Shown: positions 17,391-46,087 of the stretch, in pieces
How the letters are laid out: every line of letters begins with the position of its first letter
Numbering within the stretch: position 1 is the stretch's first letter
Assembly: GCF_030817355.1 (NCBI RefSeq)
Contig: NZ_JAUSZH010000001.1
Span: 3,845,001 to 3,909,000 of the forward strand
From: Streptomyces sp. V1I1
Lineage (GTDB): Bacteria > Actinomycetota > Actinomycetes > Streptomycetales > Streptomycetaceae
Reading direction: 5' to 3'
DNA length: 64,000 nucleotides
Translations under genes and position numbers: made by a program
The notes under the pieces: generated by a model
The model's database searches: none
Seen by the model: the letters and a program-made list of their open reading frames with translations, nothing else
What the model was told of the DNA's origin: nothing

Positions 17391-17436
17391 GATTCCCAAG
17401 CCCAGAGCGCGGGTTCGATTCCCGTCACCCGCTCCA
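17391..17436 (+). repeat. tRNA-Gly(CCC) 3' half, probable attachment site att1
   Basis: The 46 bases fold as the 3' half of a tRNA: anticodon loop TTCCCAA (anticodon CCC, glycine), 3' anticodon stem, T arm with GGTTCGATTCC and the 3' acceptor strand ending GCTCCA. The bases upstream do not supply the D arm or 5' acceptor strand, so this is not a functional tRNA gene. It matches 23078-23123 except for two positions. 3' halves of tRNA genes are the usual scars of tyrosine-integrase elements. Confidence 0.75.
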
Positions 17437-17442
17437 ATAGAT

Positions 17443-17481
17443 AAGGCCCAGGTCAGGGACATGATCCCCAACCCGGGCCTT
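17443..17481 (+). terminator. Hairpin terminator after att1
   Basis: AAGGCCC..GG at 17443-17452 pairs with CC..GGGCCTT at 17472-17481 and is followed by TGTGTTTGT. Related hairpins follow att2 and the scar at 44319, so it probably travelled with the tRNA 3' end. Confidence 0.6.
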
Positions 17482-17500
17482 TGTGTTTGTCTAGACCGAT

Positions 17501-18102
17501 TCAGGCGTCGCGCACCACTTCCGCACCACTTGGGCCCTCTTCTGGCTGGTCAGAGCCCTTCTGCCGCGCGGCCCGGACTGAGTGCTGGTCGATCAGCGCG
17601 GCGGCGAGCAACTCCCGCATGCGCTCCGTGTCCTGCGGCGCGCTCAAGCCGCGCTTGGGCAGTATCAGCACTCCGGCGCCCCATACATCTGGGTGAGTAG
17701 CACGAAGACCCGGCGACCCTCGACGCAGCGCCCGTAGAACTCCCAACGTGTGTGGTTCGTATGGCGCTCGGACACAGTGCCGATCCCTGATTGGTCGACC
17801 GTGACGCGATGTTCGCCCAGGTGCCTGGCGTATCCGAGCAAGCCCAGAGCCATCAGCCAGCGGCACGCGATCATGATGACGATGACGGTCACAGTGAACC
17901 GCAATACCCCCAGGGCAGGGGAATCGATGCCCTTGGCCGCAACGTTGATCGCGATCACCAGGCCGAGGAAGATGCCCACAACCCACAGGACGCGATAACC
18001 CCACCGGCCAACCGGACTGTGCCGCATCTGAAGTTTCAACCCGTCGGATATCTCCCGCGGTGTCACGGTGTACGTGAACTGCACGGATACGTCGGCGGTC
18101 AT
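17501..18102 (-). pseudogene. YcxB-like membrane protein, frameshifted
   Basis: The first frame, from 18102, encodes FTYTVTPREISDGLKLQMRH, two membrane helices (YRVLWVVGIFLGLVIAINVA and VLRFTVTVIVIMIACRWLMA) and a PH-like tail ending FVLLTQMYGAPEC-stop. The sequence continues in the next frame as GAGVLILPKRGLSAPQDTER, the typical YcxB C-terminus. One extra G in the GGGG run at about 17680 would restore a single protein ending at 17501. It is either a real frameshift or a homopolymer error. Confidence 0.6.
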
Positions 18103-18372
18103 ACGTCCGCCCCAGAGCTGACGGACAAGGGATCGTACTGGTAGGCGATCAAGGGCTACTCATCCCACCGCAGCCAGATTGCAAATCTCGGTGAGACCTG
18201 CGGCCCCAGACACTTCGGCGGCCGCCGGGAACGCCCTACCTCCTGGTCCTCGCACACGTCTCCCACGCGGATGCCAGCCGGGTTGCGCGGGTCGGTCGCC
18301 TCATCCATGTCGCCCCAATGTGCCAGGGGTGACCTCGCAACCGCCTCACAGTTTCCGCGGACGCGCACAAGG

Positions 18373-18421
18373 CCGTGCCAGACCCGTGCCAGATCGGTCG
18401 GCAAACCACGGTCAACGACGG
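18373..18421 (+). repeat. Arm-like direct repeat R2
   Basis: It contains CCGTGCCAGACCCGTGCCAG, then GGTCGGCAAACCACGGTCAAC. It aligns with R3 (20316) and R4 (28080), differing mainly near its 3' end. A short tRNA-Gly core lies 78 bases downstream. Confidence 0.5.
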
Positions 18422-18498
18422 GGCCGACCTCCGGCCGAACATTCCAGCAGGAGCACGCAATGCTGCAGCTCAGGCAGCACACATGCCACTCCACCCTC

Positions 18499-18514
18499 GT
18501 GATTCCCAAGCTCA
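18499..18514 (+). repeat. Short att-core copy, 16 bases
   Basis: GTGATTCCCAAGCTCA, including the anticodon loop and 3' anticodon stem of the tRNA-Gly(CCC) half-sites, is present; the T arm and acceptor end are missing. Its distance from R2 matches that of the full sites from their repeats. Confidence 0.45.
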
Positions 18515-18551
18515 TGTCGCTGCGGCCTGGCGCCGAGGTATGTTGCGCAGC

Positions 18552-18704
18552 ATGTCCGATGCCCCGCCCGCATGTCCCAACTGCGATGAGCCACTGAAGG
18601 CTGGCGGCTTTGTCAGTGACGCACGAGCTTCAGGAGCCGTGAGCGCAGACCGAGCTACAAGACGGAGCAGTGGTGGGCTGCCGCCGTCACGAAGCACTCC
18701 ATAG
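18552..18704 (+). CDS. Short zinc-ribbon-like frame, possibly truncated
   Basis: The frame starts MSDAPPACPNCDEPLKAGGF, with one CxxC pair, and then becomes Ser/Arg-rich noise, so a C-terminal part with a second CxxC is probably lost. It overlaps the tail of the convergent KilB-like gene. Confidence 0.3.
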   Translation: MSDAPPACPNCDEPLKAGGFVSDARASGAVSADRATRRSSGGLPPSRSTP

Positions 18705-19131
18705 CTGCTAGAGATTGCTCTGCTCTTCGGTTCAGCTCACCGAGATCCGCCGCGTCTTCGATGGTGATCGATACATCAAATGCGGCTGTGGCTGGTCGAA
18801 CGACTGCGTCCGGGACGCCAGCTAGCCGAAGCCGGAGCAAGCGAGCTCTGCTCAGTGTGCGTGCTTCGAAGCAAGCGTCCTTCGCCTCGCGGTAGGCGTC
18901 ACTACTTCTTCCGTGATCCCGTCTAGTGGACCAGCGCCAGATCTGCCGGCGACGGAGCTCAACTATGGCCTCGGCAAGATCGCAGATGACCGCCTGTTGC
19001 TCTTTCCTAAGGCGCTCTTGACGATCCAGTTGGGCTGCGCGATCCGTCTGGCGCCTATGGAGGACCCCACTGACGATGGATCCGCCCAGAGTTCCGACGA
19101 CAGCGATGAGCGCAACAAGGACGGCCTGCAT
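18655..19131 (-). CDS. KilB-like membrane-anchored protein
   Basis: The 158-residue product starts with a membrane helix (MQAVLVALIAVVGTLGGSIV) and continues with a long basic/acidic helical domain (QLDRQERLRKEQQAVICDLA). This is the layout of proteins named KilB after the pIJ101/pSAM2 transfer regions and common in Streptomyces integrative elements. Function outside conjugation is unclear. A similar protein is encoded at 25313-25771. The start at 19131 places the helix at the N-terminus. Confidence 0.5.
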   Translation of the reverse strand: MQAVLVALIAVVGTLGGSIVSGVLHRRQTDRAAQLDRQERLRKEQQAVICDLAEAIVELRRRQIWRWSTRRDHGRSSDAYREAKDACFEARTLSRARLLRLRLAGVPDAVVRPATAAFDVSITIEDAADLGELNRRAEQSLAAMECFVTAAAHHCSVL

Positions 19132-19409
19132 GCCCGTAAGTTCAGCACTCCCTGGTTCGTCCTGACGAGACCGCGTGCCTGCGGACCGTTCAAGTCCCGG
19201 GGTGTCGCTGCCTGTCGAATGCGTGTCGACAGTCACGCAGCGATCGGCTTGGCAGGTCACACCGTGAACGACACCGACGTGAGCAAGCGCCTTCTAAGCG
19301 CCTGTCCCAGCATGACGGGAAGCTCTCTGCCCTCACGGGAGCGAGTGTCTGTGTCCCTCTGTACTGTCCCGCTCATGACTGAGAGACCCTCGAAGACTGG
19401 CGCGACGGA

Positions 19410-19775
19410 GTGGCTGATGAGGCCAGCAAGGTGGCCGCCGGCACGTTGAACGCTGAGGACGCGTTCATGACAGACCTCTACCCTGTGTCGCTCCTCGACG
19501 CGACCGATGAATCCCTCGGCGCGTTCGAGAGCGAACTACAGACGCTCCGCAGCCCCTCCGACGATGAGGTCTTCGAAGCAGTTGAACGGGTGGTGCTCGC
19601 CCTGAACGTAATCAATGATCAGCACGACGGTGCCGCCTACGAGACCGGCGAACGCGAAGAACTCTGCGCCTACATCGACCAGGCGCTCACAGAGTGCGGC
19701 GTGGACGTTCCTGCGCTCACCGCGCGCCATGGACTGGGCCGGTACGAGATCATCGACAAGTGGCGCGACTGGTAG
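19410..19775 (+). CDS. Conserved hypothetical acidic protein
   Basis: The product (121 residues from GTG 19410, or 102 from ATG 19467) is acidic and helical, with EAVERVVLALNVINDQHDGA, an absolutely regular YETGEREELCAYIDQALTE and the ending HGLGRYEIIDKWRDW. I recognise it as a small protein widespread in Streptomyces, often encoded on mobile DNA, without known function. ATG 19467 (MTDLYPVSLLD) may be the better start. Confidence 0.55.
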   Translation: MADEASKVAAGTLNAEDAFMTDLYPVSLLDATDESLGAFESELQTLRSPSDDEVFEAVERVVLALNVINDQHDGAAYETGEREELCAYIDQALTECGVDVPALTARHGLGRYEIIDKWRDW

Positions 19776-19969
19776 GTACCCCTGCGTGCCATTGCCGTGC
19801 CAGAACGGCCGGACAGTAGCGGTCAGTCGGGGTAGCGGCGTCAGCCTGCACCCTGTGACGGCGGCCGCGCGCAGGCGGGATGAGCTGGGCGAACGTCTCA
19901 GAGATCGGTGCCAGGCATACAGGGCAGCCCTCCACATGCCTCGGTGGCTGTGGCTCGTATCGTGAGGGA

Positions 19970-20166
19970 GTGCGCGACGAGAGACACGACGAGCCGCTGT
20001 CCAGCGACGAGCTGGAGTTGTTCCTGCAGTTCCTTCACCGCTTCCCCGGCACGACGTTGACCGGTTCGCTCTCTTGGAGCTCGGCGACCCCGCCCACCCG
20101 CGCTTCCTGACGCTGACCAGTGAGCCTGCTCCCGGCGTTGACCGGTCTGCATACCGCCGTCCGTGA
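19970..20166 (+). pseudogene. Small conserved protein, frameshifted
   Basis: From GTG 19970, after GAGGGA, the frame reads VRDERHDEPLSSDELELFLQ then FLHRF. At about 20048 the coding signal moves to another frame, HDVDRFALLELGDPAHPRFL, ending at 20166. Together they form a plausible 60-70 residue acidic protein. The family is not recognised. Confidence 0.4.
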
Positions 20167-20315
20167 GCTCATCGTCCGGCCCTGCCTGACATCCATGGCT
20201 GACATCAACGACGGCGGACACCAACAGCACCAGGCGGTCACCAGCAGAGCTGTTGGCCACGATGCGCCCAGTGGTGAGGGCTGCCAGATCGAACGCCTAG
20301 AGCGGTGCTCACCGC

Positions 20316-20372
20316 TCGTGCCCGATCCGTGCCCGACAGGTCGGTAAACCACGGTCAACAGCGGGTGCCAGG
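20316..20372 (+). repeat. Arm-like direct repeat R3
   Basis: This 57-base copy differs from R4 (28080-28136) at about three positions. It contains CCGATCCGTGCCCGAC and GGTCGGTAAACCACGGTCAA. A short tRNA-Gly core follows 58 bases later. Confidence 0.6.
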
Positions 20373-20430
20373 AAGAGCCCTAGGGCTAGCCCTGGCCCCC
20401 GTGCACGCAGGTCAGGCCGCAGCCGGGGCG

Positions 20431-20447
20431 GTGATTCCCAAGCTCAG
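20431..20447 (+). repeat. Short att-core copy, 17 bases
   Basis: GTGATTCCCAAGCTCAG matches the first part of att2 and att3; the T arm and acceptor strand are absent. Confidence 0.45.
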
Positions 20448-20523
20448 GCCTCAGGCGAACGGCGAAATCCCCAAGCCTTCCAAGTGCGCGAGAGTTGCCT
20501 CAAGGCAAGCGTCGGCGGACGCC

Positions 20524-20715
20524 TCATGACCTGAAGAACGACTCCGCGCCCAAGACACCACCGGAGACGATCACCATCCAGCGATGCCCCCGTGATCTCT
20601 CACCGTCAGTCTTGAAGACCACCGAGCACCCTCGCTCGGCTAGCCACCCCATCAGTTCCACAACGTCCACATCCGCCCCCTCCAGGGGATCATGCCAGCC
20701 ACGGGGATGCGGCAT
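20524..20715 (-). pseudogene. Truncated conserved hypothetical protein
   Basis: The minus-strand frame from ATG 20715 starts MPHPRGWHDPLEGADVDVVE and continues LMGWLAERGCSVVFKTDGER then WMVIVSGGVLGAESFFRS. It reads as a small regulatory-type protein that normally continues further; here it ends early next to R3. The family is not recognised with certainty. Confidence 0.35.
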
Positions 20716-20926
20716 CGTCGGGCAGTCTCGGGGCCCTACGAGGGCGACCAGGCGGAGCGACTGCACTGAGCACGCGGCTACAGCAGCGCAGTACCGCAAC
20801 TGCAGCAACCGTCCCCGTCCAGCCAGCTGGTGCGGGCCGCCAAAGACCGCCTCTGAAGCGGTCCGGGCCGTCGCGGGGCTACCACGGTGGCGGCTTGCGC
20901 CCCTGTACAGCACTGGTTGGGAACGC

Positions 20927-22669
20927 CTAGCAGCGGGGCAGGGTGCCGCTCTCCTTGGTGAGTTTGGTGCTGTGGGCCCAGCCTTCGGTGTTCGTCCCAT
21001 CGATACGGGCGTAGATCCACTTGTTGCCGTAGGCGTTGGTGATGTAGCAGTGGTAGTAGAGCTTCACACCGGTCTTGACCACGGTCACGTACTGGCATTC
21101 CGCGTACGGCCCGGTGTAGAGGTGGGACGTCTCGGCCAGGTAGCCGTAGCCGTCGCTGCGGTTCTCGTGGCCCCAGCCGGTGCAGGCCGTCGACACCGGG
21201 GTGGGCTCCTTCACCGTCGGGCTGGGCTTGGTCTCTGGGGAGGCCGACGGGCTCTCGGTCGGCTTGTCGCCTTCGACGCCGGGCTTCTTCGTGGGGCCCA
21301 GCTCCTCGTCCTCGTGACCGTCCGGCTCCTCCGATGTCGACGGCTTCGAGGACGTTCCGGGAGAACCGGCGGACGACGGGATGCTGCCCCCGGTCGGCCA
21401 GGGGCTGTCCGTGGAGACGCCGGGCGGCGTCGCCTGTGCGCCGTCCGTGGTCGTGCCGCCCTGTTGGGACGTCAGAGCGTAGGTGATGCCGGCGCCTGCG
21501 GCGAGGAGCACGACGGCGGCCGCTGCCGCGACGACGGTGCGGTTGCTGCGGCGCCGTGCGCGACGGGCTGCCGTCCGGCTCGTCTCGGGAGCGGGGACTC
21601 CGGCGTGGCCCGCGACCGGCGCGCCGTGCTGCGGCAGCGTCGGCGGCAGGTCGGGCTGTGCGTAGCCGGCGTGCGGAGGCTCAGACTGCGGGGCGGGCTG
21701 GGGGAACAGCGGGGGACCGAACCCGGGGGCCGGTGCGGCGGCGGCCGCAGCCCCGGGACCCACCGTGGGAGCGGGTGTCGGCGTCGGAGCGGCGGATGCG
21801 AGGTGCACCGTCCCGCCCGAGGCGACGCGCTCCAGCATGCCGCGCGCCTGTTCCGCGGTGGGCCGGTTCTCCGGCTCCTTCGCCATCAGCGCCTGGAGCA
21901 CCGGCGTGAGCGGTCCCGCCCGGCGGGGGTCCGGCAGGGGCTCGGTGACGATCGCCGAAAGGGTGGACCACGCGGACGTGCGGCGGAACGGCGAAGTGCC
22001 CTCCACGGCCGCGTAGAGCGTCATGCCGAGCGACCAGATGTCCGACGCGGGACTGGGCTCCCTGCCCTGCGCGCGCTCCGGCGGCAAATAGTCGAGGGAA
22101 CCGACGAGTTGACCGCTCTGGGTCAGCTTGGCCATGGCGTCGTCGCCGGAGGCTTCCATGCTGGCGATGCCGAAATCGGTGAGTACGACCCTGCCGCCGT
22201 GCTCGATCAGCACGTTTCCCGGCTTGACGTCCCGGTGGAGTACGCCGGCCCGGTGCGCGGCGTCGAGCGCGTCCATCAGCTTGGCGCCGATCGCGGCGGC
22301 TTCGTGCGGCTCCAGTGTGCCGCGCTCCATCAGCACGTCGTCGAGCGAGGGCCCGTCGACGAGTTCCATGACGATGACCGGGAGGCCCTGCTCCTCCGTC
22401 ACGTCGTGCACGGTGACCACGCCGCTGTGCCGGATACGGGCGGCGGCCTGCGCCTCCCGCTGCATCCGGGCCCGCACGTCGGCCAGTTCGGCTGCGGAGG
22501 TGTCGGTGAAAGCCCGCAGGACCTTGACGGCGACCTCTCGGTTCAGGAGTTCGTCCACCGCCCGGGCGACCACTCCCATGCCGCCGCGCCCGATCATGGA
22601 GGTCACCCGGTAACGCCCGCCGAGTACCTTGCCCGTCAGCTCTCCGCCATGCGCTTCCCCCGCGGTCAC
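20927..22669 (-). CDS. Transmembrane Ser/Thr protein kinase
   Basis: The 580-residue product has an N-terminal eukaryotic-type kinase: glycine loop IGRGGMGVV at 26-34, catalytic Lys49 in VAVKVL, HRD at 145-147 (LHRDVKPGN), DFG at 165-167 and the APE-like segment YLPPERA. A Pro/Ala linker leads to one membrane helix (VVAAAAAVVLLAAGAGITYAL) at about residue 385. The extracytoplasmic part has a Ser/Pro/Glu-rich stalk and an SH3-like C-terminal domain (about 490-580) with WGHENRSDGYGYLAETSHLY and WIYARIDGTNTEGWAHSTKL. No PASTA repeats. It is the main cargo of the first att-bounded segment. Confidence 0.9.
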   Translation of the reverse strand: MTAGEAHGGELTGKVLGGRYRVTSMIGRGGMGVVARAVDELLNREVAVKVLRAFTDTSAAELADVRARMQREAQAAARIRHSGVVTVHDVTEEQGLPVIVMELVDGPSLDDVLMERGTLEPHEAAAIGAKLMDALDAAHRAGVLHRDVKPGNVLIEHGGRVVLTDFGIASMEASGDDAMAKLTQSGQLVGSLDYLPPERAQGREPSPASDIWSLGMTLYAAVEGTSPFRRTSAWSTLSAIVTEPLPDPRRAGPLTPVLQALMAKEPENRPTAEQARGMLERVASGGTVHLASAAPTPTPAPTVGPGAAAAAAPAPGFGPPLFPQPAPQSEPPHAGYAQPDLPPTLPQHGAPVAGHAGVPAPETSRTAARRARRRSNRTVVAAAAAVVLLAAGAGITYALTSQQGGTTTDGAQATPPGVSTDSPWPTGGSIPSSAGSPGTSSKPSTSEEPDGHEDEELGPTKKPGVEGDKPTESPSASPETKPSPTVKEPTPVSTACTGWGHENRSDGYGYLAETSHLYTGPYAECQYVTVVKTGVKLYYHCYITNAYGNKWIYARIDGTNTEGWAHSTKLTKESGTLPRC

Positions 22670-22949
22670 CGCACGCTCCGTTCCGTGATTGTTCGTGAAC
22701 CATCAATCCGAAGTCCTCAAGAGTAGAGGCAGGGGCGTGAGGGGAAGGCGGCGGCCGTGCGCAAGTATGTGGCTGCCCATCAGGGTTGTCGCCCATGGCG
22801 GGCACGGCGGTCCCTGGCCGTGCGTCTCGGCTGGCGCCAGATGTCAGAGCCGGGTGCTAACTTCCGCCGTCCAAGGGAAAAGCGAAGACGACGGGCCCGG
22901 GGGAAGCCCCACTAGCTCAGCAATGACGCAGGATGCGCCTGCACGGCGA

Positions 22950-23001
22950 GCGCACCAGATACGCACCAGATAGGGCAGCGTTCACCGGTCAACCACGGTC
23001 A
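22950..23001 (+). repeat. Arm-like direct repeat R5
   Basis: It has two GCACCAGATA-type units and ACCGGTCAACCACGGTCAC. It is more divergent than R2-R4 but occupies the same position relative to the core (att2 begins 77 bases later). Confidence 0.45.
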
Positions 23002-23077
23002 CAAGGCGAGGCTGGAGCACACCCCGATTCGTGTCGTTTCCACAGGTCAGCAGGTATGTCCGCCGGAAGCGGCCGGT

Positions 23078-23123
23078 GATTCCCAAGCTCAGAGCGCGGG
23101 TTCGATTCCCGCCACCCGCTCCA
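23078..23123 (+). repeat. tRNA-Gly(CCC) 3' half, probable attachment site att2
   Basis: This 46-base copy matches att1 at 44 of 46 positions: loop TTCCCAA, stem GCTCA, T arm GGTTCGATTCC and acceptor end GCTCCA. A weakened AAGCCCCAGGCC hairpin follows at 23129-23155. No 5' tRNA half is present upstream, so it is a scar and not a tRNA gene. Confidence 0.75.
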
Positions 23124-23196
23124 TATGAAAGCCCCAGGCCAGCGGCCCGGGACTTGTTTGTTGTCCAGACCGCGCTAAGCGTGTCGTGTCAGATCC

Positions 23197-26602: not shown

Positions 26603-26608
26603 AGTACT

Positions 26609-36502: not shown

Positions 36503-39100
36503 ATGAACAAGGGGTACGCCGTCTTCTGCGACGCGAACCGGCAGTTCTACGACGCTCCGCACCGGTCCCACGAGGAAGGCAGCGGTTCCTCCGCTCTCTA
36601 CGAGGCCGTGCGGCGCGAGCTCCCGGACGGCTGGCAGCGTCACCGGTCGGGCGACTGGCTGGCGTTCCGACCGCTCGACAGTGCACTGCCCAACCAGGGA
36701 TGGAAGATCCACATTTCCGCCTGCCTGGACAACGCGGAGAAGGTGCTCGCCCAGGTCTGGGACTACTGCGTCCCTCGATCCGTAGCCTTCAAGTGCATGC
36801 CCAGCCGGTACTTGCTGCACACCCGCAACGCCAAATACGCCGACCGCGCCGCCAGTGGGAAGTTCCTCACCGTCTACCCCGCCGACGACGACCAGTGCCG
36901 CACCATCGCGGAAGACCTGGACCGTCTGCTCGGAGGCGAGCCCGGTCCGTACATACTCAGCGACTTACGCTGGGGCGCCGGTCCGGTTTATGTGCGCTAC
37001 GGCAGCTTCACAGAGCGGCACTGTTACGACGACCGGGGTGAGCTGTGCCCCGCGGTCGAGGACAACCATGGACGACTTGTTCCCGACCGGAGGGACCCGA
37101 CGTTCCACGTCCCGGACTGGGTCACCCTCCCCGCGTTTCTCGAACCGCATCTGGCCGCCCGCTCCGCCACCACGCTCAACGACATCCCGTACCGGTTCGA
37201 GCGCGCGCTGCATTTCTCCAACGGCGGCGGCGTGTTCGTCGGCCGGGACCTGCGCACCGATGAGCAAGTGGTCTTGAAGGAGGCCCGGCCACACGCCGGT
37301 CTGGCCGCGGACGAGGCCGACGCGGTGACCCGGCTGGAGCGCGAGAGGGATGCACTGCGGCGGCTGTCCGGGCTCGGCTGCACCCCCGAGGTGCGCGACT
37401 GGTTCACCCTGGGCGACCACTCCTTCCTCGTCATGGAGTTCATCGAGGGCCGCCCGCTCAACAGCTTCTTCGCACACCGGCACCCGCTGATCGAGGCGGA
37501 TCCCAGCCCGGAGCGGCTCGCCGAGTACACCCAGTGGGCTATGCGGGTGCACCGCCTGGTGGAGGACGCCGTATCGGCGATCCACGCGCGGGGCGTCGCC
37601 TTCAACGACCTGCACCTTTTCAACATCATGCTGTCCGAGGACGAACGCTCGGTGGTGCTGCTGGACTTCGAGGCCGCCGCGGTCGATGACGTGAACCGGC
37701 GTCAGGTGGTTGCCAATCCGGGGTTCGTCGCACCTGCCGACCGCAGGGGCTTCGACGTCGACCGGTACGCCCTGGCGTGCCTGCGCCTGGCCTTGTTCCT
37801 GCCCCTCACCAGTCTGTTCGCCGTGGACCGGGCAAAAGCCGCGCATTTGGCGGAGATCGCAGCCGAGCAGTTTCCGGTGCCGCGCGATTTCCTCCAGGAA
37901 GCGGTCGCCGAGATCCTTCGCGGCCATCGTGGCACGGACCTGCCCGGGGGCAGGACCCGCGGCGCAGCGGACCCCTACTTACCCGTCGAGCTCGCCGACT
38001 GGCCACGCAGCCGCGACTCCATGGTCCGGGCGATCCTGGCCTCCGCCTCTCCGGAACGGGAGGATCGTCTCTTCCCCGGAGACATAGCCCAGTTCGGGCC
38101 GGTCGGCGGCGCATGCTTCGCCTACGGAGCGGCCGGCGTCCTCTACGCCCTGGCCGAGACCGGCGCCGAACCGGCTCCGGAAGCCGAAGAATGGCTGCTG
38201 AGGGCCGCGAAGACCCCCGCTTCCGGCAGCCCACTCGGTTTCTATGACGGCCTGTCCGGCATCGCCTGGGTCCTGGACCGGCTCGGGCACCGCGAACGCG
38301 CCCTGGACCTCGTCGAAACGATCACCTCCCAGAGCTGGGAGGACATGGCCCCCGACCTGCACAGCGGACTGGCCGGACTCGGCCTGGCCCTCGATTCCCT
38401 GGCCACCTCCACGGGCGAGAGTGCCCTGCGCGACAAGGCGCTCCAGTGCGCCCGGCTCGCGGCCGACAAGGCCGGCGCTCCCTCGTCCGGGCAAGCCGGC
38501 GCCGGGACCCCGCGGGCCGGACTCCTCCACGGAGCCACCGGAGCGGCGCTGCTCCACCTGCGTCTGTACGAGGCGACCGGCGACCACGCCCTGCTGGACC
38601 TGGCCGCCGACGCGCTCCGCCGCGACCTGGCCCGTTGTGTACGAGGCGTGGGCGGAGCCCTCCAGGTCGACGAGGGCTGGCGGACCATGCCCTACCTGGG
38701 CGCCGGCAGCGTCGGCATCGGCATGGTGCTCGACGACTACCTCGTCCACCGCACCGACGAAGAGTTCGAGAAGGCCAGAGGCGAAATCGTGCAGGCGGCG
38801 CAGGCCAAGTTCTATGCCCAGCCCGGCCTGTTCCGCGGTGCCGCGGGCATGGTGCTGCACTTGAGCCGCACCACGACCGGAGGCCCGGGCACCCACGCCG
38901 CCGACCTGCGCCGTCAGATCGACTCACTCTCGTGGGGCGCGATCCCCTACCAGGGGCATCTCGCCTTCGCCGGCGAGCAGATGATGCGCCTGTCCATGGA
39001 CCTCAGCACCGGCACAGCCGGCTGCCTGCTCGCACTGGGCAGCGCGCTGCACGACCAGCCCGTGCACCTGCCCTTCCTCCCGCCGCCACGGCGGCCCTGA
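36503..39100 (+). CDS. ramC: RamC: class III lanthionine synthetase for SapB
   Basis: The 865-residue product has the three-domain LanKC layout. Residues 1-215 form the lyase-like region (KIHISACLDNAEKVLAQVWD, SRYLLHTRNAKYADRAASGK). A kinase domain follows with glycine loop SNGGGVFVG at about 239, Lys259 in VVLKE, catalytic FNDLHLFNIM at about 368 and LLDFEA at about 390. A LanC-like cyclase domain occupies the last 330 residues (DGLSGIAWVLDRLGH, LLHGATGAALLHLRLYEATG) and lacks the zinc-binding Cys-His set, as usual for class III. It phosphorylates, dehydrates and cyclises the RamS precursor encoded 66 bases downstream. GAAGGAG precedes the ATG. Confidence 0.95.
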   Translation: MNKGYAVFCDANRQFYDAPHRSHEEGSGSSALYEAVRRELPDGWQRHRSGDWLAFRPLDSALPNQGWKIHISACLDNAEKVLAQVWDYCVPRSVAFKCMPSRYLLHTRNAKYADRAASGKFLTVYPADDDQCRTIAEDLDRLLGGEPGPYILSDLRWGAGPVYVRYGSFTERHCYDDRGELCPAVEDNHGRLVPDRRDPTFHVPDWVTLPAFLEPHLAARSATTLNDIPYRFERALHFSNGGGVFVGRDLRTDEQVVLKEARPHAGLAADEADAVTRLERERDALRRLSGLGCTPEVRDWFTLGDHSFLVMEFIEGRPLNSFFAHRHPLIEADPSPERLAEYTQWAMRVHRLVEDAVSAIHARGVAFNDLHLFNIMLSEDERSVVLLDFEAAAVDDVNRRQVVANPGFVAPADRRGFDVDRYALACLRLALFLPLTSLFAVDRAKAAHLAEIAAEQFPVPRDFLQEAVAEILRGHRGTDLPGGRTRGAADPYLPVELADWPRSRDSMVRAILASASPEREDRLFPGDIAQFGPVGGACFAYGAAGVLYALAETGAEPAPEAEEWLLRAAKTPASGSPLGFYDGLSGIAWVLDRLGHRERALDLVETITSQSWEDMAPDLHSGLAGLGLALDSLATSTGESALRDKALQCARLAADKAGAPSSGQAGAGTPRAGLLHGATGAALLHLRLYEATGDHALLDLAADALRRDLARCVRGVGGALQVDEGWRTMPYLGAGSVGIGMVLDDYLVHRTDEEFEKARGEIVQAAQAKFYAQPGLFRGAAGMVLHLSRTTTGGPGTHAADLRRQIDSLSWGAIPYQGHLAFAGEQMMRLSMDLSTGTAGCLLALGSALHDQPVHLPFLPPPRRP

Positions 39101-39165
39101 AACCGGTCCCCCCACTCGGGGGGACCTGAGCAAGATCCGTCCCCATGAAGGAGAGGAACACCACC

Positions 39166-39300
39166 ATGGCACTTCTCGACCTGCAGACGATGGAAACCCC
39201 CAAGTCCGAGGTCACCGGCGAGATCGGGACCGGCGGCGGCAGCCGCGCGAGCCTGCTGCTCTGCGGCGACAGCAGCCTGAGTGTCACCACCTGTAACTGA
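39166..39300 (+). CDS. ramS: RamS: SapB-type lanthipeptide precursor
   Basis: The 44-residue peptide has the class III leader motif LLDLQTMETP and a core SRASLLLCGDSSLSVTTCN. The two S-x-x-S-x-x-x-C units (SRASLLLC and SSLSVTTC) are the ring-forming segments of SapB, the surfactant that lets aerial hyphae rise. Compared with the S. coelicolor precursor as I remember it, the leader-core junction has extra Gly (TGGGSR) and V replaces I near the end. GGAGAGG precedes ATG 39166; an in-frame ATG at 39145 is less likely. Confidence 0.95.
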   Translation: MALLDLQTMETPKSEVTGEIGTGGGSRASLLLCGDSSLSVTTCN

Positions 39301-39311
39301 CCCACGGGTGG

Positions 39312-39333
39312 CCACAGGGCTTCGGCCCTGTGG
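39312..39333 (+). terminator. Hairpin between ramS and ramA
   Basis: CCACAGGGC at 39312-39320 pairs perfectly with GCCCTGTGG at 39325-39333 around a TTCG tetraloop. It begins 12 bases after the ramS stop and is not followed by a T run. It probably acts as an attenuator or mRNA stabiliser that keeps ramCS expression above ramAB. Confidence 0.7.
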
Positions 39334-39429
39334 TGACACCGGCGCCGCGGTCCCGGGCTGACAACTTCGCCCGGGACCGCGGTGCGCCTGCCCCGCATCT
39401 CTCCGACGGAGGCGAGGACTGCACCCCCC

Positions 39430-41208
39430 ATGGCCCCGACGCCCCGGAACGCCCCGTCCCGCAACGCCGCGGAACCCGTACCCCTCGCCCGTGCTTCAGG
39501 CATCCTGGCCGGTGCGGTGCGGCACAGTGCGAGCCGCACACTCGCCCTCTTCCTGTTCAGCACCGCATCTGCCGCCGCGGCCGTCGCCCTGCCTGCCGCG
39601 CTCGGGCACACGCTCGACCTGCTGCTCGAAGAAGCCGCGGGGGAAGAAGCCGCGGGCGTGGAGCTAGCCGTCGTGCTGTGCGCCGTGCTGGTCGCCGCCG
39701 AGGTTCTCTTCGACGCCCTGGAGGCCCTGGTCGGCGGCGCGACCAGCGCCCGCAGTACCGCCTGGCTGCGCCGCTGCGGAGCCGACCACCTTCTGTCCCT
39801 CGCGCCGCACCGTGCCGCCGGCCGCTTCACCCCGGGCGACCTGGTGACCCGGCTGACCGGCAACGCCGCAGAGACGGGCACCGCGCCCTCCACGGCGGCC
39901 ATCGGCCTGGCTTCGCTTCTCGTCCCGGCCGGCGCTCTGGTCTCCCTGGCGCTCATCGACCTCTGGCTGGCCGTTGTCTTCCTCGCGGGGATCCCCCTGC
40001 TGGCCCTGTTGCTACGGGCCTTCGCCCGCGGGTCGTCCGACAGCATCTCCCAGTACCAGCGCGTGCAGGCGGACGTCGCCGGCCGCCTCCTCGAGGCCCT
40101 CGGCGGCGCCCGTACCGTCGCCGCCGCGGGGACCGCCGAGCGTGAACTCGCCCGCGTGCTGGCGCCGCTTCCCGAACTGGGCGCGCAGGGGCGGCGCATG
40201 TGGCAGGTCTACGGACGCGCATCGGTCGGCAGCGGGATTCTGGTGCCCCTGCTGACCACGGTGGTCCTCGCCGTCGGCGGGATGCGGCTGGTCGGTGGAA
40301 GCCTGTCCGTGGGCGACTTGCTGGCAGCCGCCCGCTATGCGGCCCTCGCCGCCGGCCTGGGCGCGGTGGTCGGACAGCTCAACTCCCTTCTGCGCAGCGG
40401 CGCCGCGGCCCGCCGCATCGCCGAACTGCTCGCCCTTCCCGCCGTACGCCACGGGACGCGTCCACTGCCCGCCGGCGGTCCTGGGCGCGTCGAGCTGCGG
40501 GCGGTCACCCTGAGCCGCGGCGGCGCTCCCGTGCTGCGGGGGGTCGATCTGGTCGTGCCAGGGGGCACGACGATGGCCGTCGTCGGGCGCTCCGGCGCGG
40601 GCAAGTCCACTCTCGCCGCCGTCGCCGGACGGCTGGCCGACCCCGACGCGGGGGTGGTGCTACTGGACGGCGTACCGCTGACCGAGACGGATCCGTCGGA
40701 GCTGCGCCGGGAGGTCGGGTACGCCTTCGAACGGCCGGTCCTGTTCGGCGAAACGGTCGGCGCGGCCATCGGATTCGGACCGTACGAGCCCACCGTCTGC
40801 GAGATCGGGGCCGCGGCTCGGGCGGCGGGGGCCGACACCTTCGTCCGGCTCCTGCCCGGCGGGTACTCGGCGCCGCTCGCCGACGCCCCCCTGTCGGGCG
40901 GAGAACTGCAACGCCTCGGGCTGGCACGGGCCTTCGCCCACGCCGGCCGATTGCTGATCCTCGACGACGCCACCTCCAGCCTCGACAGCGTCACCGAACT
41001 CCACGTCGGCCGGGCACTCGTACACGACGTCCGGACGGGTACCCGGCTGCTGATCGCCCACCGCGTCTCCTCGGCGGCGCGTGCCGACCTGGTCGCATGG
41101 GTCGAGGACGGCCGCATCCGCAGGGTGGGCCCGCACGAACGCCTGTGGGAAGAGCCCGACTACCGGGCCGTGTTCGCAGACACCGGCCAGGACACGGGCG
41201 GGAGTTGA
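39430..41208 (+). CDS. ramA: RamA: ABC transporter (permease-ATPase) of the SapB locus
   Basis: The 592-residue product has an N-terminal membrane domain of about six helices (SRTLALFLFSTASAAAAVAL, LIDLWLAVVFLAGIPLLALL, ILVPLLTTVVLAVGGMRLVG) and a C-terminal ATPase: Walker A VGRSGAGKST at about 387, signature LSGGELQRLGLARA at about 488 and Walker B LLILDDATSSLD. With RamB it forms the predicted exporter for the modified peptide. ATG 39430 is chosen, with a GTG at 39382 as an alternative. Its stop overlaps the ramB start (TGATG). Confidence 0.9.
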   Translation: MAPTPRNAPSRNAAEPVPLARASGILAGAVRHSASRTLALFLFSTASAAAAVALPAALGHTLDLLLEEAAGEEAAGVELAVVLCAVLVAAEVLFDALEALVGGATSARSTAWLRRCGADHLLSLAPHRAAGRFTPGDLVTRLTGNAAETGTAPSTAAIGLASLLVPAGALVSLALIDLWLAVVFLAGIPLLALLLRAFARGSSDSISQYQRVQADVAGRLLEALGGARTVAAAGTAERELARVLAPLPELGAQGRRMWQVYGRASVGSGILVPLLTTVVLAVGGMRLVGGSLSVGDLLAAARYAALAAGLGAVVGQLNSLLRSGAAARRIAELLALPAVRHGTRPLPAGGPGRVELRAVTLSRGGAPVLRGVDLVVPGGTTMAVVGRSGAGKSTLAAVAGRLADPDAGVVLLDGVPLTETDPSELRREVGYAFERPVLFGETVGAAIGFGPYEPTVCEIGAAARAAGADTFVRLLPGGYSAPLADAPLSGGELQRLGLARAFAHAGRLLILDDATSSLDSVTELHVGRALVHDVRTGTRLLIAHRVSSAARADLVAWVEDGRIRRVGPHERLWEEPDYRAVFADTGQDTGGS

Positions 41209-42965
41209 TGACGATGACGGGCTCACGGCTCCTGCCGCAGGCCGTGCGCTTCCTCGGACGCCGCAAACGCGTGCTGCTGAAGCTCAGTGGCTGGTCCCTG
41301 CTGGAATCGGCCCACACCTTCCTCGGCGGTTACGCCGTGGCGATGGCGCTCGACCGCGGCTTTCTCGCCGGCCGCACCGGCACCGGCCTGGCGTGGCTGA
41401 CGGTGGCCGCGCTGGCCATCGTCATAGGGGGCCTGGCCACCGGCGGTGTCTTCCGAGGGCTGGCCGACCTCGTCGAACCGCTGCGGGACGGCCTGGTACG
41501 CCGGGTGGTGACCCGGTCGCTGGACCAGGCGTTGGCCGAACCGGCGCACGCCGCCGACAGCGCGGTGGTCTCCCGGCTGACCAACCAGACGGAGATTGCA
41601 CGGGACAGCTTCGCGGGGCTGGTGCTCGTGGCCCGGTCCTTCGTCTTCACCTCAGTCGGGGCGCTTTTCGGGCTTGCGGCGCTCGCTCCCGCACTGCTGG
41701 TCGTCGTGGCGCCACCGCTGCTGACGGGACTGCTGCTTTTTCTGGCCACGCTGGCGCCGATGGCCGCCCGACAACGCGACTTCCTCTGTGCCGACGAGGC
41801 GCTGTCGGCACAGTTCGGCTCGATGGCTCAGGGACTGCGCGACGTGGTGGCCTGCGGCGCAGGGGCACCCATCGCGGCGCAAACGCACGCGCTGATCGAG
41901 CAGGAAGCCAAGTCGGCACGGTCCCTCGCCCGGTGGGCGAGTGCCCGCTCCCTGGCACTCGGCATAGCCGGACACCTTCCGGTGGTCCTGCTCCTGGTCG
42001 CCGCACCATGGCTGCTGCGTCAGGGCGTCACGGCGGGCGCCCTGCTCGGCGCGCTGACGTATCTGACCCAGGCCCTGCTGCCCGCTCTGCACAACCTGAT
42101 GAACGCGCTTGGCGCGGCCGGCACCAGGCTGCTCGTGGTCCTCAGCCGGCTGGCCCCCGGGCCGGACCCCCGCCCGACCGTCCCGGTACCCGCGGGCAAC
42201 CCCGAACGGCCGGCGCCGGCACCGGGACGCCCCGGCGCACCGCGGGTCGAACTGCGTGCGGTGACGTTCGCCTACGGTCCGGCGGCGCAACCCGTGCTGC
42301 GTGGCCTCAACCTGACGATCGAGCCCGGCGAGCACCTCACCGTGGTGGGGCCCAGCGGCATCGGCAAGTCCACGCTGACCTGCCTGCTGGCCGGCCTGCT
42401 CGAACCGGACAAGGGCGAGGTACGGCTCCACGACCGGCCGGCGCACACGCAAGCCGGCCGTGGAGCCGACCCCTCCCGGCTGCGCGTGCTCATCCCTCAG
42501 CAGGCCTACGTCTTCACCGGCAGCCTGTACGAGAACCTGCTCTACCTGTGCCCGGACGGAGCTTCGCGGTCGGCGGTGGACGCCTCGTCGGAAGCGGTCG
42601 GCCTCGGCCCCCTGGTGCGCAAGCTCGGCGGGTTCGACGCGCATGTCGATCCCGCGGCCCTGTCGCACGGCGAAAGGCAGCTCATCGCGCTCGGCCGGGC
42701 GCATCTCTCTCCCGCGCCGCTCGTCATCCTGGACGAGGCCACCTGCCACCTCGATCCGGCGGCCGAAGCCCGGGCCGAACGGGCCTTCGCCCTGCGGCCC
42801 GGGACGCTGATCGTGGTTGCCCACCGGATCAGTTCGGCTCGGCGCGCCGACCGGATCCTGGTGCTCGACGGCCTCAACGCCACCTGTGGGAGTCATCAGG
42901 AGCTGCTCGACCACTCGTCGCTCTACCGTGACCTGGTGGGACGCTGGCACGCCGAGAGGATCTGA
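41208..42965 (+). CDS. ramB: RamB: ABC transporter (permease-ATPase) of the SapB locus
   Basis: The 585-residue product repeats the permease-ATPase layout: helices such as WLTVAALAIVIGGLATGGVF and GLAALAPALLVVVAPPLLTG, then Walker A VGPSGIGKST at about 379, signature LSHGERQLIALGRA at about 484 and Walker B LVILDEATCHLD. It is coupled to ramA by a TGATG overlap, as expected for a heterodimeric exporter. A second in-frame ATG at 41214 could also start it. ramR converges on its 3' end. Confidence 0.9.
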   Translation: MTMTGSRLLPQAVRFLGRRKRVLLKLSGWSLLESAHTFLGGYAVAMALDRGFLAGRTGTGLAWLTVAALAIVIGGLATGGVFRGLADLVEPLRDGLVRRVVTRSLDQALAEPAHAADSAVVSRLTNQTEIARDSFAGLVLVARSFVFTSVGALFGLAALAPALLVVVAPPLLTGLLLFLATLAPMAARQRDFLCADEALSAQFGSMAQGLRDVVACGAGAPIAAQTHALIEQEAKSARSLARWASARSLALGIAGHLPVVLLLVAAPWLLRQGVTAGALLGALTYLTQALLPALHNLMNALGAAGTRLLVVLSRLAPGPDPRPTVPVPAGNPERPAPAPGRPGAPRVELRAVTFAYGPAAQPVLRGLNLTIEPGEHLTVVGPSGIGKSTLTCLLAGLLEPDKGEVRLHDRPAHTQAGRGADPSRLRVLIPQQAYVFTGSLYENLLYLCPDGASRSAVDASSEAVGLGPLVRKLGGFDAHVDPAALSHGERQLIALGRAHLSPAPLVILDEATCHLDPAAEARAERAFALRPGTLIVVAHRISSARRADRILVLDGLNATCGSHQELLDHSSLYRDLVGRWHAERI

Positions 42966-42982
42966 GACGGCCCGCCCCGTCT
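42965..42982. terminator. Bidirectional hairpin between ramB and ramR
   Basis: AGACGG at 42965-42970 pairs with CCGTCT at 42977-42982. It overlaps both stop codons of the convergent genes. Confidence 0.45.
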
Positions 42983-43568
42983 ACACCCAACCCGCCCCGT
43001 GCGAAATACGGACGACGTCAGTCCAGTTACGGGCGTTGGTCTTGCGGATGATTGCGGACATGTAGTTCCGCACAGTCCCCTTGCTCAGTTGCAGAGTACT
43101 GGCGGTCTCAGGGACGGAAGCGCCGTCCGAAGCGAGTGCCAGCACGCTCAATTCACGGGGAGTCAGTGACATGTCGGCCGCCTGGACAAGGTCCGGGGCG
43201 AGCGAGGCGTCGACGTACCGCTTCCCCGCTGCCACAAGCCTGATCGCGTTCAGCAACAGGGTTGGCGACGCGTCCTTGTTCACGAAGCCCAGAGCCTTGG
43301 CCTGGGCGGCACGCCGCAGAACACCGGGCCTGCACGAGGTGGCCAGGACGAGCAGCTCGCATTTCTGCCCGGTGGGATTGGCCGGTAATCGCGAGGCCCC
43401 CGGACAGTCCGCGTCCACAACACAGAGGTCAGGCCGTAACAAGCGAGCCTGGCTCGGTGCCTTCTCCCAACAGGCGGCTGTCGCCTCGATGCCGTCCGCA
43501 TGTTCCAACAGCGCTGTAAGAGCCGATCGCATCAACCATATGTCGTGCACCAATAGCACCCGGGTCAC
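42981..43568 (-). CDS. ramR: RamR: LuxR-type response regulator of the SapB locus
   Basis: The 195-residue product has an N-terminal receiver-like domain (VTRVLLVHDIWLMRSALTAL, LRPDLCVVDADCPGASRLPA, AKALGFVNKDASPTLLLNAI) and a C-terminal LuxR helix-turn-helix (MSLTPRELSVLALASDGASV, TLQLSKGTVRNYMSAIIRKT). The acidic pair normally found near the start is His-Asp here, so phosphorylation may be atypical, as noted for RamR. It is expected to activate ramCSAB. GTG 43568 with GAGG upstream is preferred. It converges on ramB. Confidence 0.85.
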   Translation of the reverse strand: MTRVLLVHDIWLMRSALTALLEHADGIEATAACWEKAPSQARLLRPDLCVVDADCPGASRLPANPTGQKCELLVLATSCRPGVLRRAAQAKALGFVNKDASPTLLLNAIRLVAAGKRYVDASLAPDLVQAADMSLTPRELSVLALASDGASVPETASTLQLSKGTVRNYMSAIIRKTNARNWTDVVRISHGAGWV

Positions 43569-44072
43569 GTTCGCCTCACTTCGACAAGAAGTACCGAAAC
43601 TTGCGCCGCGCACGCCCATCCCTACCCGGCTCGGATGGAGCGATGGCTCGGCTTTCGGCCAGCTACGGGTGTCCCTTGTCCGAGCGGCGAGACCGGCCTC
43701 CACGGGGCGAGGTCGGTTTCCCCTCCTGCCTGGGGCTTCCATCTCCTGGCCGGACTCGACGGGCCGCTCGGGGGGCAGGGCACCGCTTCCGGTCTCCGGC
43801 TGGCCTTCCATGCGGCCGTCGACGGAGTCCAGGTGGCTGCCACCAGCGCCGACGTGCTCGGCACCGAGCCGGACGTGGAGCAACCGGCCGGCCGGCGGCT
43901 GTGGCCGGTCCCCGCTGGTGGACACCGCCTGGCCGACGCGGTCACTCGCCGACGGCGCACCCAGGTGCTGGACCGGTTCAAACGTTGCGCACCAGGTCCG
44001 GGCCGGGGGCTCTGTAGTGCAGCCATCCGCGTCGTGAACGCGGGCCATCCAGGTTGGGAGGACACTGGTCGT
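43569..44072. other. Stretch between ramR and the next gene
   Basis: Long frames are open on both strands but none shows a known motif. The plus-strand frame at about 43800-43920 (VDGVQVAATSADVLGTEPDV) is the most protein-like; it has no clear start. I leave it unannotated. Confidence 0.35.
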
Positions 44073-44318
44073 ATGGCCCTACCCAAAACGCATCAATGCC
44101 CGGCCTGCTCGGACGGAGCCGCGCCGGACACAGTCCTGCACGAAGACCTCGTCGTCGGAGCACCACTGTCCATGGAGGATCTCACCGACGCGCAGCGCCT
44201 CGACCGGTTCGCCCGCAAGTATGCCCACGACGGTTGCCAGGTCAGAGAAGTCCGGCGGGTCCCGCACGACGGCTTGAGCGGCTACGCCTGGTCCGTCCGC
44301 TTCACCGAGAGTTCGTGA
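44073..44318 (+). CDS. Small hypothetical protein with one CxxC
   Basis: The 81-residue product starts MALPKTHQCPACSDGAAPDT, with one CPAC knuckle, followed by MEDLTDAQRLDRFARKYAHD and VREVRRVPHDGLSGYAWSVR. A GGGAGGAC site precedes ATG 44073. A single CxxC without a second pair makes zinc binding uncertain. I do not recognise the family. Confidence 0.5.
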   Translation: MALPKTHQCPACSDGAAPDTVLHEDLVVGAPLSMEDLTDAQRLDRFARKYAHDGCQVREVRRVPHDGLSGYAWSVRFTESS

Positions 44319-44361
44319 CACCCACTCCACGCAAAAGCCCCAGGCCGGCGGCCCGGGGCTG
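44319..44361 (+). terminator. Terminator hairpin with a possible tRNA-Gly 3' scar
   Basis: CACCCACTCCA at 44319-44329 is one base different from the acceptor end of the att sites. It is followed by AGCCCCAGGCC pairing with GGCCCGGGGCT (about 44336-44360), the same hairpin type that follows att1 and att2. It therefore terminates the small upstream gene and may also be a fourth, strongly shortened attachment scar. Confidence 0.5.
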
Positions 44362-44410
44362 CTGTGTCGTCCGGGACTTCCCGGAGGGTGCTGCGCTCGG
44401 ATGCACGACG

Positions 44411-45937
44411 TCAGCCCGGATTCGCGCCGCGGGCGTCTTGGGCGATGTCCCTCTGCAGTGCGGCCTGCGCGATGTTGCGGGCCATACCGCCGAACACGAC
44501 CGCATGGAAGGGCGACACGCTCCACCAGTAGACATGCCCGAGCAGACCGTGCGGGTGGAACAGCGCCCGCTGCCGGTAGCAGGCCCGGCCTTTCTCGTCC
44601 CGGTCGGCGTACATCTCCAGCCAGGCGAGCCCCGGCAGGCGCATCTCGGCACGCAACCGCAGCAGCCGGCCCGGTTCGATCTCCTCCACGCGCCAGAAGT
44701 CCAGCGAGTCCCCCACCCGCAGCCGTGCGGCGTCCCGGCGGCCACGGCGGAGTCCGACGCCTCCGACCAGCCGGTCGAGCCAGCCTCGTACCGCCCAGGC
44801 GAGCGGGAAGGAGTACCAGCCGTTGTCACCGCCGATCCCCTCGATGACCTGCCACAGTGCCTTCGGTGAGGCGTCGACGGCGAGCGCGCGCCGGTCGACG
44901 TAGAGGCTGCCGCCGGCCCAGTCGGGGTCCGTGGGCAGAGGATCGCTCGGAGCTGCGGGCAGCGCTGCGGAGGACCAGCGGGTGGTGACCTGAGCGTCGC
45001 GTACGCGCTGAATGGCCAGGTTGAGGGCCTGGTCGAAGCCGATCGGCGCACCGGGCGGATCGGGTACGTACTGCGCGATGTCGTGCTCGCGGCAGACGAC
45101 CTCGTGGCGCAGCGACTCGGCCAGCGGCCGGGCGAGGGAGGGGGGAACGGGCGTGACCAGACCGATCCACAGACTGGAGAGGCGGGGGGTCAGCATCGGT
45201 ACGCGCACGATGAAACGGCGCGGCAGGCCGGCCACCACCGCGTACCGCCGCATCATCTGCTCGTAGGTCACGACGTCGGGCCCGCCGATGTCGAACGCGC
45301 GGTTCACCTCGTCGGGCATGTCCGCACTGCCCACCAGATACCGCAGCACGTCCCGGACGGCGATCGGCTGGATGCGGGTGCCGACCCACCTCGGGGTGAC
45401 CATGACCGGCAGCCGCTCGGTGAGGTAGCGCAGCATCTCGAAGGACGCGGAACCGGAGCCGATGATGACCGCAGCACGGAGCACGGTCGCCGGTACCGGC
45501 GAGCGTAGGAAGGTCTCGCCGACCTCGGAGCGGGACCGCAGATGGGGTGACAGTGCGCGTTCCGGCACGCCGGCCGGGGTCAGTCCGCCCAGGTAGACGA
45601 TGCGCCGTACGCCCGCGGCGCGGGCCCGCTCGGCGAAGGCCCGGGCGGCCTTCCGGTCGGTTTCCTCGAAGTCGTCTCCGGCCCGCAGGGCGTGTACGAG
45701 GTAATAGGCCACGTCGATACCGCGCAGGGCGTCGCCGACCGATTCCGGATCGGTCACATCCCCGCGTACCACCTCGGCGCGTCCTGCCCAGGGGTGATCG
45801 CGCAGCTTGTCCGGAGACCGGGCCACGCACCGTACGCGGTGCCCGGCATCCAGCAATTCAGGCACCAGCCGGCCTCCGATGTAGCCCGTCGCGCCTGTCA
45901 CGAGACAGTGCAGGCTCTGCGTATCCCGGCCGCTCAT
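44411..45937 (-). CDS. SDR-type NAD(P)-binding protein fused to DUF2867
   Basis: The 508-residue product has an N-terminal atypical short-chain dehydrogenase fold: nucleotide loop VTGATGYIGGRLVPELLDAG at about residue 13, then VVRGDVTDPESVGDALRGID, VAYYLVHALRAGDDFEETDR and RIVYLGGLTPAG. The last 170 residues are a DUF2867/SRPBCC-like domain (LYVDRRALAVDASPKALWQV, GWYSFPLAWAVRGWLDRLVG, HVYWWSVSPFHAVVFGGMAR). This fusion is common in actinobacteria and thought to act on isoprenoid or quinone-like substrates, unproven. GGAGGCTCCC precedes ATG 45937. Confidence 0.85.
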   Translation of the reverse strand: MSGRDTQSLHCLVTGATGYIGGRLVPELLDAGHRVRCVARSPDKLRDHPWAGRAEVVRGDVTDPESVGDALRGIDVAYYLVHALRAGDDFEETDRKAARAFAERARAAGVRRIVYLGGLTPAGVPERALSPHLRSRSEVGETFLRSPVPATVLRAAVIIGSGSASFEMLRYLTERLPVMVTPRWVGTRIQPIAVRDVLRYLVGSADMPDEVNRAFDIGGPDVVTYEQMMRRYAVVAGLPRRFIVRVPMLTPRLSSLWIGLVTPVPPSLARPLAESLRHEVVCREHDIAQYVPDPPGAPIGFDQALNLAIQRVRDAQVTTRWSSAALPAAPSDPLPTDPDWAGGSLYVDRRALAVDASPKALWQVIEGIGGDNGWYSFPLAWAVRGWLDRLVGGVGLRRGRRDAARLRVGDSLDFWRVEEIEPGRLLRLRAEMRLPGLAWLEMYADRDEKGRACYRQRALFHPHGLLGHVYWWSVSPFHAVVFGGMARNIAQAALQRDIAQDARGANPG

Positions 45938-46042
45938 GGGAGCCTCCGATCCGCAGGGGTCCGACATTGCCACTCTCGCCCCTGTCGGCGCATTCCGCTC
46001 ATGGGGGGCCGCCCCAGAAGCGGTGCGCGGGCTTACCTGCCG

Positions 46043-46087
46043 GTGATTCCCAAGCTCAGAGCGCGGGTTCGATTCCGATCACCCGCT
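46043..46087 (+). repeat. tRNA-Gly(CCC) 3' half, probable attachment site att3
   Basis: It matches att2 from GATTCCCAAGCTCAGAGCGC through the T arm, then has CGATC where the others have CCGTC/CCGCC, and ends GCTCC with T in place of the final A. No 5' tRNA half is present. It is the right-hand boundary of the accreted region as I read it. Confidence 0.7.

Follow-up and report, generated by a model that had tools for sequence, protein, structure and literature searches.

A row of tRNA-Gly(CCC) 3′-half scars in Streptomyces sp. V1I1 and its relatives points to accretion of integrative elements and small cassettes at one tRNA gene

In the 8.3-Mb genome of Streptomyces sp. V1I1, the DNA to the right of an intact tRNA-Gly(CCC) gene is punctuated by displaced copies of that gene's 3′ half, all in the same orientation, as is the hallmark of tandem accretion. 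The window analyzed here covers 64,000 nucleotides (bases 3845001-3909000 of an 8.27-Mb contig), and positions refer to it unless a contig is named; relatives are identified by G numbers or by name. The row very probably arose through accretion of actinomycete integrative and conjugative elements (AICEs) and cis-mobilisable cassettes at tRNA-Gly(CCC), giving an array that is somewhat integron-like and has decayed in V1I1. A first-pass annotation, made from the sequence alone, had expected the seeding tRNA outside the window, to the left, and it lies there indeed, at contig 3844423-3844496 (window -577 to -504). The 29 kb proposed for the array grow to about 47 kb, since it starts at -577.

A 45-base pattern, with up to three mismatches allowed, matches the window three times on the plus strand (17391, 23078, and 46045), and 100 dinucleotide shuffles of the window gave no match. 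The three 3′-half copies noted in the first pass are thus real, with corrected coordinates: the match to the tRNA runs from the seven-base anticodon loop TTCCCAA through the 3′ end, the bases directly before the loop are GA in the scars versus GC in the tRNA, and the arm further left is also foreign; identity with the tRNA therefore begins at 17393, 23080, and 46047. Strand exchange by a tyrosine integrase within the anticodon loop would leave such scars. Membership of a scar in an intact tRNA gene, which the annotation had named as contradicting it, was not seen for any of them, and ARAGORN called no glycine tRNA in the window. The two shorter cores suggested near 18499 and 20431 exist as exact copies of TGATTCCCAAGCTCA at 18500 and 20432, a sequence found with at most one mismatch at seven places in the 8.3-Mb genome, five of them exact. 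Of 47 sites collected, 45 with a 3′ half went into a profile, which adds one degenerate copy; the sites in the window are as follows:

17393-17435, plus strand: scar 1, tRNA-Gly(CCC) 3′ half with one change; element arm on the left, terminator-like hairpin on the right
18503-18514, plus strand: short core TTCCCAAGCTCA without tRNA 3′ half; pattern match, profile E value 5e-4
20435-20446, plus strand: short core TTCCCAAGCTCA, left end of a kinase cassette; pattern match and comparison with Streptomyces sp. ISL-1
23080-23122, plus strand: scar 2, tRNA-Gly(CCC) 3′ half with one change; pattern match
44312-44372, plus strand: degenerate scar, end of the 3′ half and part of the terminator; profile E value 2e-7
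46047-46089, plus strand: scar 3, tRNA-Gly(CCC) 3′ half with two changes, the rightmost found; pattern match and profile

Behind every copy that has a 3′ half stands a terminator-like hairpin, and this would suit a reading of the repeats as functional RNAs or regulatory copies of the tRNA end that have nothing to do with insertion. We find this hardly credible and already disfavored by the existence of core-only sites and by the fact that blocks shared between genomes end at the sites.

Similar sites occur elsewhere. Two lie on the minus strand 156 and 161 kb past the last scar (contig 4047.2 and 4051.6 kb), and no tRNA was called within 1.5 kb of the latter. They form an off-tRNA cluster within contig 4040001-4060000 (sites at 4051592 and 4047212, minus strand), and the 3.7 kb adjoining them are 96% identical to contig C20 of S. 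xantholiticus, which has similar sites. Large linear Streptomyces plasmids also carry lone sites similar to scars or to the 3′ half of the tRNA, with no integrase annotated in five 12-kb stretches.

Across Streptomyces, the tRNA marks a hotspot, with a conserved flank before it and variable DNA behind it. The gene to its left, g04, shows 86 to 97% protein identity in each of the 17 loci of relatives containing both the tRNA and the left flank (inverted in G037), and no gene order to the right of the tRNA is shared among the relatives compared. The synteny comparison proposed in the first pass accordingly agrees with it: the gene order of 17-46 kb is common to no relative examined. Single genes do recur behind the tRNA; g39 to g41, for example, have counterparts in the G004 array, and g48 has one in G018. 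Of 100 genomes, 20 contain the element-side core TGATTCCCAAGCTCA, all of them among the 61 of the same genus (V1I1 included) and none among the 39 others; this count is a lower bound, as the G004, G012, and G025 arrays carry another tRNA allele. In the arrays that we read, scars carry the tRNA allele of their own genome, bar point changes, as would be expected if the 3′ half of a cassette must pair with the 5′ half of the host. No minus-strand site scored above 40 bits in 28 oriented stretches from 27 genomes. The motif CAGGTCAG, with at most one mismatch, lies 22 to 48 nucleotides upstream of 49 of 61 scar sites versus 80 of 5,000 control windows, a count slightly favorable in that the profile that found some of the sites spans the arm. 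Sites without a 3′ half number 6 of these 61; one (G035) is internally shortened, and two of the other five represent the same kinase cassette. A search of viral contigs with the attP pattern returned no stretch. With a 48-nucleotide query, 330 phage records match, 53 of them over more than 80% of the query, and among the matches listed these are phages of other genera, likely reflecting tRNA similarity.

How the sites are used is illustrated by the units between the first of them:

17393-18502, plus strand: unit opening with a 3′ half, delimited site to site
18503-20434, plus strand: core-only unit; the arm at its right end (20308-20434) shows 88% identity to that of an unfilled ISL-1 site
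20435-23079, plus strand: kinase cassette; ISL-1 has it at 97% identity, and the alignment stops at the sites
20927-22669, minus strand: Ser/Thr protein kinase gene within the cassette (PF00069, E value 1e-45)

Window 20429-23142 is 97% identical to ISL-1 (contig L127, 5461-2723), where the kinase cassette starts with the same core and ends with the same scar, with different arms to the left of the core. On a second ISL-1 contig, the arm found left of 20435 (88% identity over 150 alignment columns) is followed by TTCCCAAGCTCAG and then by a full tRNA 3′ half. The site is thus unfilled there, and the window holds its counterpart filled with the kinase cassette, the 3′ half now standing at 23080. 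Cis-mobilisable elements (CIMEs) have att sites at both ends and lack an integrase and a transfer gene, and the kinase cassette has just this composition. Bringing no 3′ half of its own, it would break a tRNA gene on entry but not a scar. That the core at 20435 occurs by chance is contradicted by the shared cassette and the unfilled site in ISL-1, and derivation of the short cores from deleted 3′ halves was rejected, as the same core-only end stands behind two different arms. For the core at 18503, the support consists of an arm-like flank and the same core, with no filled and unfilled pair; judged from their sequences, both short cores fit genuine sites.

Homologous recombination between the repeated 3′ half and terminator (45 to 75 bp) could also exchange cassettes after old insertions, with no integrase involved. 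This would agree with the 3′ half and terminator stretch common to all scars of an array, with alignments that often continue past the scar through the terminator, and with the several array-bearing genomes that have no intact integrase. However, the left end of the kinase cassette and the unfilled site share no more than about 13 bases (TTCCCAAGCTCAG), a short stretch for homologous recombination, and arms are conserved at scars; we regard this route as distinctly improbable.

Cutting the arrays at their sites yielded 49 delimited units, 20 of which are smaller than 2.5 kb, and 15 of these 20 carry toxin-antitoxin-type genes (assigned by Pfam or through nucleotide identity with a unit that had been scanned, with two gamma units among the 15 being weak). 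The small cassettes, of 1.1 to 2.4 kb, are mostly toxin-antitoxin-like, have no integrase, end at sites, and occur across species in varying order. Cassette alpha (1.2 to 1.36 kb, AbiEii nucleotidyltransferase, 85 to 96% pairwise identity) heads the row in G005 and G053, stands third in G019, and is also present in G052 and G057. Cassette beta (1.35 kb), with a Phd/YefM antitoxin and a second gene, is shared over its full length by G029 and G053 at 94% and over most of its length occurs twice in G057; the label "RelE-like" for the second gene was dropped, there being no Pfam, NCBIfam, or PADLOC match and no meaningful PDB match. By open reading frame (ORF) listing and Pfam, both alpha and beta are of the CIME type, with att sites at both ends and neither integrase nor transfer gene. 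Cassette gamma, about 2 kb, encodes a helix-turn-helix (HTH) protein with a sub-cutoff AbiEi match (G012 and G025), and cassette delta encodes a CcdA-like protein and a PIN protein (the latter sub-cutoff) in G005, G029, and partly elsewhere. A unit of G029 (L025, 4968-9764) contains a gene for a long RHS-repeat protein that has a bacterial toxin domain. The successive insertions by tyrosine integrases at the tRNA gene that the first pass envisaged are therefore supported in outline, with the amendment that many units in relatives are small cassettes without an integrase.

Ordinary AICE accretion followed by decay, with all units being shrunken former AICEs and the small shared units vertical leftovers, would account for the integrase fragments and broken copies seen in several arrays (V1I1, G010, and G057), and AICE decay between repeats is described in the portions of PMC9513070 available to us. 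Leftovers should keep their order, however, and alpha does not; we hold this explanation to be unlikely.

We also counted interior alignments of at least 500 bp and at least 80% identity in uncut arrays (n = 31). In 11 of the 31, the left end lies at the core in both genomes, in 11 the right end lies 50 to 110 bp past the core in both, and five have both ends at sites, whereas random placement put at most one alignment at sites in 2,000 runs. These 31 alignments are non-independent, the genomes were chosen for having sites, and the V1I1 site at 20435 was added by hand.

As a candidate helper, a 387-amino-acid tyrosine integrase, identified from a block conserved behind the tRNA, lies 51 to 130 bp behind it at nine loci (G036, G019, G030, G058, G002, G047, G027, ISL-1, and S. 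xantholiticus), and the same integrase is found 4 to 7 kb in, behind other DNA, in three further relatives (G012, G023, and G025). Orthologs with 63 to 100% identity occur in 13 of the 61 same-genus genomes searched (the G017 copy has one stop), and broken or partial copies occur in further genomes, with those of V1I1, G010, and G057 located in the arrays. In the available portions of PMC9513070 and PMC3218068, Streptomyces AICEs at tRNA genes are described as carrying int, rep, and an FtsK-type transfer gene. The G036 integrase gene (PF00589) is followed in order by genes for RepSA (PF20199, E value 3e-152), a DUF2637 protein, FtsK/SpoIIIE (PF01580), and a GntR-UTRA regulator, all beside the att site, and this element is an AICE of the pSAM2 type. 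The V1I1 genome gave no match to the integrase at an E value of 1e-20; its array holds an integrase fragment, 58 codons in two frames (36176-36347, residues 145 to 202) with 83% DNA identity over 154 bp to S. xantholiticus, and no intact integrase, rep, or transfer gene was found among the 50 window ORFs scanned. A PF00589 search for one common integrase was abandoned, the matches listed being diverse and several lying beside tRNA-Thr, -Pro, -Arg, and -His; an in-array integrase of G025, mid-unit beside a small HTH gene, was judged to be cargo. Against the integron/Xer model NF040815, the integrase scores 40 bits versus a cutoff of 220 and so is not of the IntI type. Judged from sequence comparison, the tRNA-Gly(CCC) AICE, with its own integrase subfamily, is the likely helper for the cassettes.

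Under accretion of AICEs and cassettes, the pSAM2-type AICE integrase would act at tRNA-Gly(CCC), its most likely point of action lying inside the anticodon loop TTCCCAA. On insertion, the element's own 3′ half would rebuild the tRNA, and the old 3′ half would stay behind the element arm as a scar. Small integrase-less cassettes may use the same sites, moved in trans by the AICE integrase: those with a 3′ half could enter the tRNA or a scar, and core-only cassettes of the kinase type would enter scars, as entry into the tRNA would break it. The row would thus grow both at its head and inside. In V1I1, just a fragment of the integrase is left and scars have acquired mutations; short of the arrival of a helper AICE, the row is thus probably fixed in its present state.

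Several points weigh against this account. Sites also occur off the tRNA, in the V1I1 genome and on plasmids. Gamma in G012 and G025 matches from its left end but not through its right end, and for 14 of the 31 interior alignments neither end falls at a site, so that much sharing ignores unit borders or the borders have decayed. An intact integrase ortholog is missing from the array-bearing genomes of V1I1 and six relatives (G004, G029, G035, G037, G044, and G053), which fits helper turnover, or another enzyme acting, without being proof. Mobility of the cassettes (excision, circle formation, and transfer) is itself something that we infer from sequence.

The first pass had described the DNA between the scars as rich in mobile-element-type genes. 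Pfam scans of 50 window ORFs do not bear this out, detecting no transposase, intact integrase, or AICE rep or transfer family, and matching regulators, stress and envelope genes, the Ser/Thr kinase, and a SapB cluster. We do not count as evidence a very weak match to an integrase C-terminus at 17504-18178 (E value 0.014 at best). The further features of the window are as follows:

31953-35405, minus strand: genes for HTTM, DUF5819, and ice-binding proteins; all three have relatives within a single delimited unit of the G004 array
36176-36347, minus strand: fragment of the tRNA-Gly(CCC) AICE integrase, by sequence comparison
36503-39100, plus strand: ramC, class III lanthionine synthetase (NF038151 above cutoff, RamC_N)
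39145-39300, plus strand: ramS, SapB/AmfS precursor (NF033212 above cutoff)
39430-42965, plus strand: two ABC transporter genes, ramA/ramB by position (domain scans)
42981-44048, minus strand: ORF for a LuxR-type response regulator, taken as ramR from its position and with an uncertain true start (domain scans)
44411-45937, minus strand: NAD-binding/DUF2867 gene; no other gene was called between the degenerate scar and scar 3 (ORF and domain scan)

In the first unit, 1202-1592 and 10186-10517 are adjacent at 96 to 97% identity on an ISL-1 contig (L129, 11899-12618), behind an integrase remnant. A tRNA-Arg called by ARAGORN at 38152-38239, inside ramC on the opposite strand, was taken as a probable false call.

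SapB is a peptide of aerial growth, and its cluster in the array is the only one found in V1I1, ramC having a single match in the genome at an E value of 1e-60. Six relatives carry ramC and the tRNA on a single long contig (G005, G012, G015, G019, G027, and G036); their ramC lies far from the tRNA and shows 57 to 69% identity. The closest ramC carriers, taken from a pattern-limited scan, are S. xantholiticus and ISL-1, which match the ram block at 91 to 92% (window 36395-43820 and 36274-43963, respectively). The flanks are unmatched in both, except for a 433-bp ISL-1 piece resembling window 59445-59876, and the two relatives are unlike each other outside the block, bar 200 bp at 70%; such unlike flanks suggest that the cluster changes place readily. 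In V1I1, the cluster is flanked by the integrase fragment (left) and the degenerate scar (right), from which we guess that it arrived by an AICE. The ram cluster of S. xantholiticus has a tRNA-Leu gene (L094, 8226-8311) at a distance of about 1.7 kb.

Mobile integrons consist of a row of exchangeable small cassettes, toxin-antitoxin cassettes among them, with the integrase outside the cassette. The array described here resembles them in its row of small cassettes and in an integrase outside the cassettes, but its anchor is a tRNA, its sites are tRNA derived with an arm, and its integrase falls below the integron/Xer cutoff. It differs from CIMEs in that its minimal units are mostly of the toxin-antitoxin type and the tRNA half can be missing on one side. 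The literature is cited below from the portions available to us. The term CIME is used in PMC3146451, on the Dehalococcoides ssrA islands, which are similar in their many direct 3′-end repeats downstream of an RNA gene, in having integration genes in some islands only, and in the discussion of cis-mobilisable elements; there, however, the anchor is the tmRNA gene, the enzyme a serine recombinase, and the cargo larger, compared with tRNA-Gly(CCC) and an AICE tyrosine integrase here. Tandem AICEs between direct repeats, including decayed ones without an integrase, have been reported and cis-mobilisation proposed (PMC9513070, PMC3218068). The accretion described there involves AICEs, whole or defective, at tRNA-Arg and further sites (same sources), whereas the present array has many toxin-antitoxin-type cassettes of 1 to 2 kb that are shared across species, reordered, and in some cases without the tRNA half. 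Tycheposons are likewise tRNA-anchored islands with a tyrosine recombinase and cargo, but are elements of 4 to 200 kb, and cassettes of 1 to 2 kb are not in their description as available (PMC10872708). We found no account of this array in the literature covered, subscription papers and preprints lying outside that coverage. Accretion at tRNA genes is already known, and cassette-scale exchange and core-only cassettes look new.

The finding accounts for the differing DNA behind tRNA-Gly(CCC) in the species compared, and offers a testable route by which integrase-less modules of one and two genes, mostly of the toxin-antitoxin type, could pass between Streptomyces species. It bears on the question, raised in the available part of PMC3218068, of whether elements sharing one target can form tandem arrays. 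We give even chances to a broader proposal, that tRNA-Gly(CCC) is the landing pad of a genus-wide, integron-like exchange platform, with an AICE integrase acting in trans, toxin-antitoxin cassettes stabilizing the row, old scars receiving core-only cassettes, and developmental genes (SapB) being drawn in. Capture of the SapB cluster at this site, if it took place, would put a developmental locus of V1I1 on mobile ground.

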